Origin: a virus
IMG/VR virus record: IMGVR_UViG_3300013114_000124
Span: 1-54,403 of that record
DNA length: 54,403 nucleotides
Direction: 5' to 3' (one strand)
Shown: piece after piece, positions 91 through 36,103 of the stretch
Numbering within the stretch: the first letter of the stretch is position 1
Layout of the letters: every line of letters begins with the position of its first letter
Translations under genes and position numbers: made by a program
The notes under the pieces: model-generated
Databases searched by the model: none
Told to the model about the DNA's origin: nothing
What the model saw: the letters and a program-made list of their open reading frames with translations, nothing else

Positions 91-170
91 TACCCGCAGT
101 GTGATTCGAACACACGTCTAAACATCTGTGTATCATAGATGAATTGTCCTAACCTCTAGACGATGCGGGC
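91..170 (-). tRNA. tRNA-like gene 1 with enlarged anticodon domain, anticodon not assignable
   Basis: Read on the minus strand, a 7-bp acceptor stem (GCCCGCA with TGCGGGT, ending in a G-U pair), TC at positions 8-9, a D arm (GTCT, 8-nt loop, GGAC) and a T arm (GTGTG-TTCGAAT-CACAC) are all clear. The region between D and T arms is 7 nt longer than in a normal tRNA: the only good helix there, CATCT/AGATG, has a 9-nt loop and is offset. CCA is not encoded; the discriminator A is followed by CAA. It could be a degenerate tRNA or a tRNA-like RNA. A second gene at 1024-1103 has the same layout and the same 80-nt length. Confidence 0.6.
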
Positions 171-1023: not shown

Positions 1024-1103
1024 CACCCATAGACAGATTCGAACTGCCGTCTATACACCGCGACGATTTTAGTGTATTGTCCTAGCCACTAGACGATATG
1101 GGC
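1024..1103 (-). tRNA. tRNA-like gene 2 with enlarged anticodon domain, anticodon not assignable
   Basis: The minus strand shows the acceptor stem GCCCATA/TATGGGT (again with a terminal G-U pair), TC, a D arm GTCT...GGAC and a T arm GGCAG-TTCGAAT-CTGTC. The stretch between the arms is 7 nt longer than normal and contains a helix TACAC/GTGTA enclosing a 13-nt loop. As in tRNA-like gene 1, CGTCTA on the 5' side can pair with TAGACG just before the T stem, an alternative 6-bp helix kept in both. The 3' end is G followed by CAA, so CCA is not encoded. It lies just downstream of a terminator. Confidence 0.6.
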
Positions 1104-1109
1104 ATGATA

Positions 1110-1140
1110 TAAAAAGCCCTACACTTTTACATGTAGGGCT
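1110..1140 (-). terminator. Intrinsic terminator after the Rho-N-like gene
   Basis: On the minus strand a 9-bp stem (AGCCCTACA/TGTAGGGCT) with a short A/T loop is followed by five T residues. It ends the transcript carrying the gene at 1171-1593; the tRNA-like gene at 1024-1103 lies just beyond, so that gene needs read-through or its own promoter. Confidence 0.75.
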
Positions 1141-1170: not shown

Positions 1171-1593
1171 TTATGCCGTTACTAAAGCTATTAATTCAGC
1201 TTTTTTCATCTTTGAAAATTTGGTTTTACCTTGTTTTTTAGCTACCTCTTTAAGCTGCGCTACGTTCATCTTCTCAATTGGAGTTAATGTAGGTGCAGTA
1301 TCAGATAAATTCGCAGCGCTTTTAATAGCCTTGTGTATTGCTTGTAACACAAAGAATGGGCTGTAATTTCCTGCCTTTGAAACTCGCACGTTCTCCTTGA
1401 ATGTAGCGTAAACATCGTTGTTTTCTCTAATCTCACTCAATATTTGAATGTATTGCGTGCTAAGCTCTATTTCATCTCTAAAAAGCCACAGTATTTTTAC
1501 TGCACCTCCTAATGATTTGCACTCTCGTTTTAACGCCTTGTTAGTGTTTAAAACGTTCATTTTGTAAGCTGAAATTTTGTTTGATTTTGCCAT
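1171..1593 (-). CDS. Protein with C-terminal Rho-N/SAP-like helix-turn domain
   Basis: This 140-residue protein ends in a segment reading MNVAQLKEVAKKQGK and then KFSKMKKAELIALV (residues about 105-138). That is the two-helix pattern of Rho N-terminal, LEM and SAP-type nucleic-acid-binding domains ('L..lk..ak..gi......kkaeLi..i'). The N-terminal 100 residues are basic and unassigned. The start lies 45 bp downstream of the terminal hairpin of the large RNA, in the same direction, so it may be expressed by read-through from that RNA or from a weak AT-rich promoter in between. It ends at a good intrinsic terminator. Function is inferred only as nucleic-acid binding. Confidence 0.6.
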   Translation of the reverse strand: MAKSNKISAYKMNVLNTNKALKRECKSLGGAVKILWLFRDEIELSTQYIQILSEIRENNDVYATFKENVRVSKAGNYSPFFVLQAIHKAIKSAANLSDTAPTLTPIEKMNVAQLKEVAKKQGKTKFSKMKKAELIALVTA

Positions 1594-1637: not shown

Positions 1638-2337
1638 GCCCATGACAATATGCACTACGTGTCATGGGCTATTGATATGTACCACTTTTGTGGATTTCAC
1701 GCACTGGTTTACTGCGCTTATGTAAATATATGTATACGGATTTATTCCGTTGGTGTAACTTAATAAAATGTTGGGTTTTTTTGAGCCTTGAAATATACAC
1801 GTTAGTACCACAGCTATTTTATTGTACTTTTGATAACTCATTACCTAGAGATAAAACCCGTCTGAAAAATGTTGGCGTATCGCTGACTAATGTATATGCA
1901 GGTTAGTTTCATACCTTTCCTGCCAACCACTCGAATAATCACGCTAGGGTATTTTACTCCCATTGTCACGCAGTGGCAACCTTTTTACACCTTTACGGTG
2001 CCCTATATGCGTTCACGCTTCTCACGCCCAACTGATAGGTTTTAATTCGTTTCAGTAAGGATTCTACTCACTTTGCGCTATAATAGTAGTTTAACGTGAC
2101 TAAACTCGCCATACGATTCACCCAATGCGCTGCACTCCTAATGCTTGACCATACCTGTGCTTACAGGGCATTTCACCCTTATTATATGCTTACACCTTTG
2201 TGCTTAGCATACCTGCTGAATTGCAGTACACGTGTAGAATTGCCATTCTACCATGGCGCCATTGTGGCTCCAAAACTACTTCGCTACCTAGTAACAAAGT
2301 TTTAAAATCATGTTGAAATCGTTATTTCGTTTCAACA
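1638..2337 (-). ncRNA. Large structured non-coding RNA, about 700 nt
   Basis: No credible gene is present on either strand, but the minus-strand sequence is a chain of hairpins: 2312-2336, 2258-2268 (GCCA/TGGC), 2234-2251 (GTAGAAT/ATTCTAC), 2185-2211 (TATGCT/AGCATA with inner CAC/GTG), 2154-2167 (CCTGT/ACAGG), 2088-2106 (AGTTTA/TAAACT), 1988-2000 (CACC/GGTG), 1947-1961, 1736-1750 (ACGGA/TCCGT), 1682-1693 (CCAC/GTGG) and a closing 9-bp stem 1638-1669. A TATGTTTG promoter element sits directly before the first hairpin. Size, complexity and the nearby tRNA-like genes recall the giant phage RNAs GOLLD and ROOL, but I cannot confirm membership from sequence alone. It could be a new class. The exact 5' and 3' ends are estimates. 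Confidence 0.65.
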
Positions 2338-2340
2338 GTA

Positions 2341-2371
2341 CAAACATACGTGGCATTTTTGACATAGTAAA
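2341..2371 (-). promoter_or_regulatory. Promoter of the large RNA
   Basis: Minus strand: a -7 element TATGTTTG at 2348-2341 lies 20 bp from a T-rich -33 position (TTT at 2371-2369). Transcription would begin about 6 nt on, at the base of the first RNA hairpin. The core TGTCAAA...CGTATGTTTGTA closely matches the serine recombinase promoter at 8842-8872. The first dyad of the repeat array (2368-2392) overlaps the -33 position, which suggests regulation by whatever binds the array. Confidence 0.6.
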
Positions 2372-3671
2372 ATCCTGATAATCAAGCAGTTAGAAATTAA
2401 AGTGTTGATAATCAGACAGTTAGCTAAGTAGCTGAGTATCAAGGACTTAAGCAAAATGCCTTCTCGGTTAAAGCGCTGAGTATCAGGTAGTTAGCTTGTT
2501 TGTAATCGCCGTTTTTCCCAAACTGAAAACCTAGAGTAAAAAAAATTCAAAAAAAATTAAAAAGGGCTTATAAGTAACTGATATTCAAGTAGTTACAAGC
2601 AAAAAAAATTTTAAAATTAGCTTTAAAGTTAAAAGGTTGATAATCAAGCAGTTATAAAATCGAGTTTGTAAGTAGCTGAGTATCAATAAGTTATAAATTT
2701 AAAAAATTACGTTTGTAAGTATCTGAGAATCAAGTAGTTAGAGTAAGTAGTTGATAATGAGGCAGTTACGTTAAAGTGTTGATACTCAAGTAGTTAGGCT
2801 ATAAGCACGTAAAAAGTTAAAGTGCTGAAAATCAGGTAGTTAAGTTTTGGCTAGGTAGAAGTTAAGCTAAAGTACTGAGTATCAGCAGGTTATGTTTAAA
2901 TGGTGTTTGTAAGTAGCTGAGGTTCAGGCAATTACGATTCTGGCTCATAAGGTAGATTAAAGGTAAAACGTTGATAATGAGGCAGTTACGGCTAAGTAGC
3001 TGAGTATCAGGCGCTTACACCGGCACCGAGAATTAAATAGTCGTAACTATCTGAAAGTCAGGCAATTAGGCGTAACTATCTGAGAATCAGGCGCTTACAC
3101 TGGCACCGAGACTTAAATAGGCGTAACTATCTGAGTATCAGGCGCTTACACCGGCAAGCATATTTAAGTAGTTGTAACTATCTGAGAATCAGGTAATTAG
3201 ACGTAACTAATTGATAATGAGGCAGTTAGATTAACTCTTAAAGTATATGGAATTCGCGCGCGCGTAAAGAGCGTAACTATCTGAGAATGAAGCAGTTAGA
3301 CGTAACTAATTGATAATGAGGCAGTTACGGTAGAGTGGGTGAATTGAGTGGGTAAATAATTGATAATGAGGCAGTTACGGGTAAGTGTTTGATAGTCAAA
3401 TGATTAGAGTATAAGTAGTTAATAGTAATATATAAGCCTGAGTATCAAGCAGTTAGAATAAAAAACCTACAATACATAACTGTTAAGCGCCTGATTGTCA
3501 AGGTGTTAAGTTTGTTAAGCTAGTGTTTAACAGATTTTACAGATACATTAGACAAAAGATGTAACTATCTGAGTATCAGCGATTTAGACTAGTGTTTTAG
3601 GGCATTTCAATAAATAAGTTATTAAAAAAGTCAAAAAATTTGCTCGTAAAAGCCTGAAAATCAAGCCCGTA
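2368..3671. repeat. Array of about 28 copies of a 25-bp dyad (iteron-like)
   Basis: The unit is TAA-N5-TGA-N3-TCA-N5-TTA, an interrupted palindrome. I count about 28 copies; the exact spacing is kept in nearly all (for example 2368-2392, 2398-2422, 2425-2449). About six replace the right-half TCA with TGA, and the last few are degenerate. Copies are separated by 1 to about 70 bp of AT-rich sequence, in places nearly abutting. Units near 3000-3300 are most alike (TAACTATC on the left; GGCGCTTA or GGCAGTTA on the right). Stop codons in every frame exclude coding. Dyad symmetry points to a dimeric DNA-binding protein; an origin of replication, a centromere-like site or a large operator would all fit. 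Confidence 0.85.
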
Positions 3672-31248: not shown

Positions 31249-34200
31249 ATGAAACAAGAACAAGGTAAAAATACATTCATAGGAAGTAGAATGGATAAAG
31301 ATACCGACTCTCGTTTACTAGAGCCAGGTGTTTATAGAGATGCCCTTAATGTAAGGGTAGGTAATTCTAGCGGTTCTGATGTAGGGGCCTTAGAAAACTC
31401 TCTATCTAATAAAAAACTGACTAACAAAAGTTTTGGAGCTAATGCTACGTGCATAGGAATGTATTCAGATAAAAACGAACAAAAGGTATATTGGTTCGTT
31501 GTCTCAGACGATGGTAGCTACGTAATGGAACATGATTTCCCTAACGGAGTTACGTCTGTTGTATTAGAAGATACCTCAGCAGGTGTTCTCAACTTTAACA
31601 AAGAGTACTTAATAACAGGAGTTAACATTATAATAGATACAGACAAGAAAAGGAGACTTTTATATTGGACTGATAATCTAAACCCTCCTAGAAGTATTAA
31701 CATAGATAGAGCTAAGACTTACGGAGCTAACAACTTTACAGAAGAGCAGATAAGTGTAATCAAAGCTCCCCCTTTACAAAAGCCTTCTATAGCATTAGGA
31801 CAAACTAACACAGGCTTAGAGAATAACATAGAGGAAAAATTCTTAAGGTTTGCTTATAGATATAGATACCTAGACGGTGAGTATAGCGCACTCTCTTCTT
31901 TCTCTGAAACAGCTTTCTTAGCTAAGCCCTTCAACTTTGACTACGCAGTAAGTTCTAACGAAGGTATGGTAAACAACTTTAGTAAAGTTAGTATCGCCTT
32001 TAATACAGGCTCTAAACTAGTTACTGAAATAGATGTAGTGTTTAAAGAATCAGGAACTAATACAGTCTATTTAGTAGACAGTTACAAAAAAGAATCTAAG
32101 AATTGGGGAGACAATGAGAATCAATTTGTAGAGTTCTTCAACAATAAAATAAAGAAAGCTTTAGACCAAGACCAATTATTTAGGTTATATGACGCAGTGC
32201 CCCTCAAAGCAAAGGCACAAGAGTTAATAGGTAATAGGTTAGTATACGGATTCTACACAGAGAATTATAACATAGAGGACGCTAACGGTTCTGCAATAGA
32301 TGTAGATTTCTCTCTAGAGGGTATTAACACAGCTATAAATATAGGCACACCTACAGAGTCACTTAAAAGTAACAGGGATTACGAGATAGGTATAGTTTAT
32401 CTAGATAAGTACGGAAGACAAACATCTGTACTTACATCGGAGAATAATACTATAAACTTCCCTAACATAGACTCTTTAACTCAAAATCAAATTAAAGCTG
32501 TAGTAAATAGCCCTGCACCAAACTTTGCAGAAAAGTTTAGATTCTACATTAAACAAACAAGAGAGGATTACGATATAATCGTACCCACTATTTTTTATTT
32601 GGACGGGCCTTACGTATGGGTTAAATTGGAAGGTAGCGAAGACAATAAGATAGAGGAAGGAGATTACTTATATGTAAAAGCTGACACACAAGAGGTATTA
32701 CCTCAGTTGGTGCAAACCAAAGTGTTAGAGATTAAGAATCAACCCAAAGATTTCTTAGAAGACAGTAACAAGCAGTTATCAGGTAATTACATGAGATTAA
32801 AACCTAATAACTATAGGCTAGACCCTGACGACTACGAATTTTACGATTGGGACAGTTACGACAGTTCTAAAAACGCTAATGATAACCCTATAAGAGGTAA
32901 CCAATCTTATGTAGAACCTGCAGTTTATTATGGTACGTCACTATCAGATGACTTAACATCTAGCGGAACTTACACAGGCTTAGTTGACGAGAGATACGAA
33001 ATAGAGATAATAGTTACAGGAGCGACAGATGAGTTTAGATGGACTAAAGATGAAGGTCAGAATTGGTCAGCTAACACACCTATTACAGGTGCTGCTCAAG
33101 CAATAGAGAACGGAGTTGAAATAACATTCGCATCTGTAACAGGGCACAGCTTAGATGACTCTTGGGTAGTAGGAGCTAAGTCAAGTTCAGACGACAGTTT
33201 TGGAGGTTCGGAGAGTTCTAAAGCTTACGGATTTTTTAAAGGGCCTGATACAAATAACGGCGTTATATATGGAGGCGCTAGGATAGAGTGGGAATACTCT
33301 GAGTACGGAGAAGAAACTCAAAAGATAACTAGGAACTTCGTATCAACTAGAAAGTACGAAAACATAGAAGAGTGGTATTACGGAGATAATATTTACGACG
33401 AGATATCTGAAATAGGAGAGAGTAGAATATGGTTTAGAAGAGGGCTCGTAGAGTTCAATTACCCCGGCAACCAATACAATAACTCTAAGCACATCACAGT
33501 AGACCCTGCAGAGGATATGGTTATGATTGTGAAAAGTAAAGGTACTCAGAACAGCGACCTTGACGGAGTTGTAAAACTAAGAACAAGCTTAGAAATATTC
33601 CAAGCAGAGCAAAATGTAATCTTTGAAACTATACCGTTTTCAAATGATGCAGCGCCATTCTTTGAGATAGGACAAACTTACGACGTAGTTAATGGGTTCC
33701 ACACTAGCAGTAACGCTTCAGATGTAGACCAAGCTTTAGGTGTAGCAGGAGAGTTTGTACTAGATGTGTTTAACTGCATAGCTTGGGGGAACGCTTTTGA
33801 AAGCTACAAGATAAAAGATTTGTTTAACGCTAAGACTATGAAGATAGACACTAGACCTTCTGATAGTATCGAAGATTACTCAGAGAACATAAGGATAGCG
33901 TCTTTAACTTATAGCAAGGTTTATGAGCAAACTCTTAATTATAATGGTACTAATGAGTTTAACTTATCTACTATAAACTTTGTAGATATAGACGACAAGT
34001 ATAACTCTATACAGAAACTATTCTCTAGAGACACAGATTTAATCGTTTTTCAAGAAGATAAGCTACACAAAATGCCTTTTGAGAAAGACGTATTATTTAC
34101 TGCCGCAGGAGAAGGAGCTGTAACAGAAAGTAATAAAGTATTTGGTAAAGAGATTCCTTACGCAGGAGAGTTTGGTATATCTCTTAACCCTGAGAGTTTT

Positions 34201-35362: not shown

Positions 35363-36103
35363 ATGGCTTACACGATAACATTTGATGAGGGAGCTAAAGG
35401 ATTTACGTCCTTTTTCTCCTATGTACCTGAGTTTATGATAGGTATGAATAACGATTTTTTCACCGTAAAGGATGGACAATTGTATATGCACAACGACGAA
35501 GAGAATCCTACAAGGAACAATTTCTATGGGGCTCAGCACAATACTAAAATTACATATGTAGAGAACAGTTTTCCTTCTCAAGTTAAATTTGTTAAGTCTA
35601 TGAAATTAGAGGCTAACAGACCTTTACAGACTGACATAAAAGCTTTTGTTTCAGACGAGAATTCTTCAGCTATGGACTCAACCATATCAAGCGATGAATA
35701 TGTAGAGAAAGAAGGTATGTTCTACTCTTACGTAAGAAGAAACGAGAATGGAGGAAACTACAGCGATAAGAATGTGTACGGAATAGGGGAAGTGTTCGAC
35801 GTATCAGGCTCAACCGTAACTTTCGCCACTCCTATACCATTAGGCTCTATAGCAGCAGGAGATAATATACTAGACGTTAATGGCTCTGTCTTAGCTCAAA
35901 TAGTATCGTACTCAGGCTCAAGTATGGAAACAACCCCTAACTTAGCAAGCCTCCCCGGCGACTTTTTAATAGGTCAAAAGAGCGCTAGAATAGAGGCAGG
36001 TAACTTGAGAGGATATAACTTCGAAGTTACTTTAGAAGATAGCAATACAAGTAGGTTAGAACTGTTTGGGAGTAAACTTAACACATCTAAGTCAAACCCT
36101 TAA
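35363..36103 (+). CDS. Virion structural protein
   Basis: The 246-residue protein starts MAYTITFDEGAKGFTSFFSY. The opening segment and VPEFMIGMNNDFFTVKDGQL with LYMHNDEENPTRNNFYGAQH recall domains seen next to stabilization proteins in Bacteroidetes phages ('t..y.e..kgwtsf.sf.pe.....n..yys...g.lw.h'), as I remember them. A long beta-rich middle contains GSIAAGDNILDVNGSVLAQI. It follows the giant gene by 13 bp. A tail hub or spike-base role is inferred. Confidence 0.65.
   Translation: MAYTITFDEGAKGFTSFFSYVPEFMIGMNNDFFTVKDGQLYMHNDEENPTRNNFYGAQHNTKITYVENSFPSQVKFVKSMKLEANRPLQTDIKAFVSDENSSAMDSTISSDEYVEKEGMFYSYVRRNENGGNYSDKNVYGIGEVFDVSGSTVTFATPIPLGSIAAGDNILDVNGSVLAQIVSYSGSSMETTPNLASLPGDFLIGQKSARIEAGNLRGYNFEVTLEDSNTSRLELFGSKLNTSKSNP

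Follow-up and report, generated by a model that had tools for sequence, protein, structure and literature searches.

The window analysed here, the whole 54,403-nucleotide stretch of IMG/VR virus record IMGVR_UViG_3300013114_000124, carries on its minus strand a large RNA that, judged by sequence comparison, is a real structured RNA family, so far confined to this Callevirus-like lineage. This conclusion is drawn from compensatory changes with no broken pairs among homologues and from the match of a covariance model (R1) to the window. The portal protein places the window as a relative of Callevirus, a phage of marine flavobacteria: it shares 64% identity with those of the Cellulophaga phages phi38:1, phi40:1 and Calle (Callevirus, Pervagoviridae), and all remaining relatives in the same collection fall below 36%.

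Coding content and folding of the RNA

The RNA and its elements occupy the following positions in the window.

1638..2338, minus strand: structured non-coding RNA of about 700 nt (fold z, no ORF, syntenic and structural homologues)
2341..2348, minus strand: Bacteroidetes sigma-A type promoter -7 box TATGTTTG (TAnnTTTG), assigned from sequence and published consensus
2311..2337, minus strand: 5' hairpin of 10 pairs (mean pair probability 0.96)
2184..2226, minus strand: core hairpins A (2226-2213) and B (2212-2184) (covariance model match, pair counts)
2160..2183, minus strand: most conserved element AAUAAGGGUGAAAUGCCCUGUAAG, with hairpin 2179-2165 (21/24 identical to Calle_1)
1638..1669, minus strand: 3' hairpin of 10 bp, a bulged C and 3 bp, with the loop GNGNA (paired in 3/3 sequences)

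The preliminary description had proposed a large, structured and non-coding RNA on the minus strand, starting at a promoter-like element, and the present results bear this out: the fold z is about -4, the homologues carry compensatory changes, and the longest minus-strand ORF within 1638-2338 is 59 aa. The minimum free energy (MFE) of this strand is -199.5 kcal/mol (z -4.05, with 0/60 shuffles equally good), and the antisense (plus) strand reaches a z of only -1.5 to -1.7. At least eleven hairpins had been claimed, and the MFE structure contains 15, but the number alone is within the range of the shuffles (13.2 +/- 2.1), so that stability, rather than hairpin count, sets this stretch apart. 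The promoter expected at the 5' hairpin is present as TATGTTTG, 3 nt ahead of the hairpin 2337-2311; it has the TAnnTTTG form that serves as the -7 box of sigma-A promoters in flavobacteria (PMC9723704). The closing hairpin at the 3' end also exists (1669-1638, folding energy z -5), although its pairs number 10+3 and not the 9 first counted.

Homologues and conserved structure

The comparison of the RNA rests on three distinct sequences, those of the window, phi38:1 and Calle_1. Both cultured phages carry a stretch of about 600 nt without conserved coding sequence 5' of an orthologous small gene, which is intergenic and without RNA annotation in phi38:1 (5' of gp056) and in Calle_1 (5' of Calle1_33).

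NC_021796 ~32933-33540, minus strand: phi38:1 RNA counterpart, upstream of gp056

The layout in both is a TACATTTG box followed by a 5' hairpin, with a strong hairpin ending the stretch about 55 nt before the gene. In Calle_1 the TACATTTG box is at the same place as the window TATGTTTG, and the 5' hairpin is unrelated in sequence to that of the window; the stretch folds with a z of -4.7 to -5.2. A short CDS, gp057, is annotated in the phi38:1 stretch, in a frame that is closed in Calle_1. These phages resemble the window in the position of the RNA, the type of promoter, the core and 3' hairpins and the gene that follows. They differ in that their stretches are about 90 nt shorter, lie alongside a large tRNA island, lack the palindrome array and have two promoter-like regions in tandem. 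The tandem regions upstream of the Calle_1 RNA are 50 nt each (L006 5028-5077 and 5266-5315), lie 238 nt apart and are 74% alike. BLASTN with the RNA against phages and plasmids gave no match, and the homology is therefore apparent solely via synteny and structure.

To assess the agreement between predicted structure and substitutions, we compared phi38:1 with Calle_1, which differ by 38 substitutions across 610 nt. A structure derived from phi38:1 on its own shows 4 double compensatory changes in Calle_1 where 0.39 are expected (reached in 1/5000 placements) and 7 broken pairs where 14 are expected (10/5000). The same test on the structure predicted from Calle_1 only is weaker (59/5000 for double changes and 1123/5000 for broken pairs), and in the antisense control the broken pairs are near expectation (1890/5000), yet 3 double changes occur. 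The alifold consensus of the two phages has 14 changed pairs, 7 of them double and 0 broken, on a structure chosen on that same alignment.

The window adds a more distant sequence to this comparison. Its top 24-base match to Calle_1 is 21/24 (AAUAAsGGUGAAAUrCCsUGUAAG), the maximum in 400 shuffles being 20, and the three-hairpin core with AUAAsGGUGAAAUrCCsUGUAAG is present in the window; within this element, hairpin 2179-2165 is retained through a C-G to G-C change. Model R1, which covers the 80-nt core and was built from phi38:1 and Calle_1 alone, was searched with filters off, and its top match in 54 kb is window 2154-2231 on the minus strand (26.1 bits, E 0.0041; runner-up 16.2 bits). In the three-sequence alignment of the core, which was fitted to the model, 55/55 cells are paired, and 8/20 pairs are altered on both sides with 0 broken (matched by 0/500 shuffles). 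When the 3' hairpin is aligned on sequence only, 39/39 cells are paired, 7/13 pairs are altered on both sides and 0 are broken (again 0/500), and the bulged C and GNGNA loop occur in 3/3 sequences. Core and 3' hairpin together have 15/33 base pairs altered on both sides and 0 broken. Homologues had been called for as a check on the proposed stems, and those found in phi38:1 and Calle_1 have substitutions that keep them. Beyond these two elements the profile alignment of the window with Calle_1 is poor (z 2.0, with at least 1/40 shuffles higher), and direct MAFFT alignment of the whole RNA is unreliable; homology is thus demonstrated for core and 3' end, and would by inference extend to the middle.

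Among the matches listed in the IMG/VR motif scans, the real ones are phi38:1 and Calle_1 only, the others having no stem or lying inside ORFs. Neither a search of 46 related records with the RNA model nor protein searches for the small gene product that included genome contigs gave a convincing new member, and the RNA model had no match in the deposited relatives Panino, Gundel_1, phi13:2, MW202828 and elemo. A second model, R2, found none in 400 genomes from the family of a Lacinutrix bin. Since fragments are numerous among the related virus records and no positive control accompanied the search of 400 genomes, rarity is not proven. The best of 100 motif-preselected loci under R2, L226 3347-3423 on a 163-kb virus contig (26.6 bits, E 0.048), was judged to be chance, as was a pattern match in Panino that lies inside a CDS. 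Large gaps in other relatives gave no match; one of them is a GTG-start gene, and another, 1.1 kb long and in the contig of a related phage, adjoins a type III hammerhead ribozyme (L113 5161-5217, minus strand, 49.6 bits). The plus strand of this last gap also folds well (z -3.8).

The transcription unit and its protein

1171..1593, minus strand: gene encoding a predicted helical protein of 140 aa whose C-terminus is Rho_N/SAP-like (Pfam, orthologues, AF2)
1115..1140, minus strand: intrinsic terminator closing the RNA-gene unit (counterpart in Calle_1)

The small gene starts 44 nt downstream of the RNA on the same strand, and in the window, phi38:1 and Calle_1 alike the RNA lies directly 5' of the orthologous gene. 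A search of 50,697 phage records gave orthologues in the seven Callevirus records and in no others, and no relative examined has the RNA without the gene or the gene without the RNA. Neither a TAnnTTTG box nor a terminator was found between the RNA, with its 3' hairpin, and the gene. The first intrinsic terminator comes only after the gene, both here and in Calle_1 (L006 6520-6551). Hence the RNA is not clearly stand-alone, and of the independent giant RNA first envisaged the promoter-like start stands, but not an end of its own before the next gene.

The best reading, in our opinion, is that the RNA is co-transcribed with the small gene and that the encoded protein is its probable partner, as this arrangement of sequence elements suggests. 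The protein is basic and predicted to be helical (AF2 model, mean pLDDT 76), and its C-terminal tail differs between the window and Callevirus. RNA binding by this protein is suggested by the Rho_N/SAP-like Pfam scores of the window copy, which are below the curated cut-offs, and by a short, weak and non-significant fold match of its C-terminus to the Rho RNA-binding domain. Host sigma-A polymerase would transcribe RNA and gene together; the RNA would fold, perhaps with processing beside its 3' hairpin, and would become the RNA part of a ribonucleoprotein (RNP) whose protein is the co-encoded Rho_N/SAP-like product, and the RNP would act in trans, as OLE RNA does in concert with its partner proteins. 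That the RNA is transcribed, accumulates, is bound by the product of the gene and acts in trans is what we infer from the DNA sequence. To the whole proposal, a lineage-specific structured RNA co-transcribed with a gene and acting as an RNP in trans, we give about an even chance of being correct. That it represents a new class of large phage RNA, a trans-acting defined particle with a co-encoded Rho_N/SAP-like protein and, in some carriers, a tRNA island and tmRNA, we hold to be unlikely.

The main rival is a long cis-acting 5' leader, a UTR that controls the small gene, for example through feedback binding by its protein. A single promoter and a single terminator common to RNA and gene, with no promoter box between them, would suit such a leader, as would their co-occurrence in the relatives examined; however, a leader of 600-700 nt and 15 hairpins would be a large one, and the most conserved element is situated about 570-590 nt 5' of the start codon. 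The predicted fold is more open around the start of the gene than elsewhere, which implies that simple masking of the start codon is not how the RNA works. We regard control in cis as somewhat unlikely.

Neighbouring elements and known RNA classes

Around the co-transcribed RNA and gene, the window contains these further features.

2366..3671, plus strand: array of 28 imperfect 27-bp palindromes (consensus nnTAAnnnnCTGAnnATCAnGnAGTTA), adjoining the RNA promoter
1024..1103, minus strand: tRNA-Glu-like gene with an enlarged anticodon arm (Rfam tRNA 50.7 bits; missed by ARAGORN)
91..170, minus strand: another tRNA-Glu-like gene, its anticodon arm likewise enlarged (Rfam tRNA 41.3 bits)

The palindrome copies are all oriented alike and separate the RNA promoter from the plus-strand genes; the rest of the window has only two weak matches, and the array was not found in Calle_1. 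This neighbourhood bears on another possibility, that the RNA or its promoter helps to start phage DNA replication at the divergent region. A local minimum of cumulative GC skew falls at window 2349, on the promoter, the skew minimum of the complete Calle_1 genome (35762-35900) is near the RNA start (near 36060), and the 28 palindromes beside the promoter are iteron-like. The skew switch is nevertheless also the switch in gene direction, a sufficient cause by itself, the array is missing from Calle_1, and the RNA runs away from it, and we consider a role as an origin transcript quite improbable.

The tRNA-Glu-like genes, both 80 nt and without a UUC loop, lie 0.5 and 1.5 kb downstream of the RNA. 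The nearness of tRNA-like genes, noted earlier at 0.5 kb, holds for phi38:1 and Calle_1 too, which have a tRNA island and, downstream of the RNA, normal tRNA-Glu genes. In phi38:1 about 19 tRNAs surround the RNA locus, and a tmRNA is found at L007 11707-12068 (plus strand, 87.6 bits).

GOLLD and ROOL are large phage RNAs of function not known (PMC12286853). Similar to the window RNA, they are structured and often near tRNA islands, and the GOLLD trait of phage origin near tRNAs is seen in the window. Unlike them, the window RNA has no Rfam match, shares a unit with a protein gene and is known from one phage lineage only. Rfam at gathering score gave two tRNA matches only in the whole window, and relaxed thresholds gave nothing relevant there. 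Membership in GOLLD, ROOL, OLE or HEARO, which had been suggested, found no backing in the covariance-model search, with no match even at E 5 and permissive filters in the window or the Calle_1 counterpart. A highly divergent GOLLD or ROOL, which size, dense hairpins, phage origin and nearby tRNAs might suggest, is very improbable against this lack of a match. OLE (PMC11332333, PMC12054373) is likewise a structured RNA, of about 600 nt, and works as an RNP, as proposed for the window RNA, but it belongs to Bacillota genomes, whereas the window RNA comes from a Bacteroidetes phage, has no Rfam match and has a putative partner protein. That there is no RNA at all, only chance hairpins within a DNA control region, would accord with a hairpin count not above that of shuffles but is scarcely credible given the strand-specific stability and the compensatory changes in homologues.

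The structured RNA family described here is thus placed outside all Rfam families, with a candidate protein partner encoded next to it. Because its relatives are in the cultured phages phi38:1 and Calle_1, its production and its function are directly testable in the laboratory, and such a direct test of function is a rare opportunity for large structured phage RNAs.
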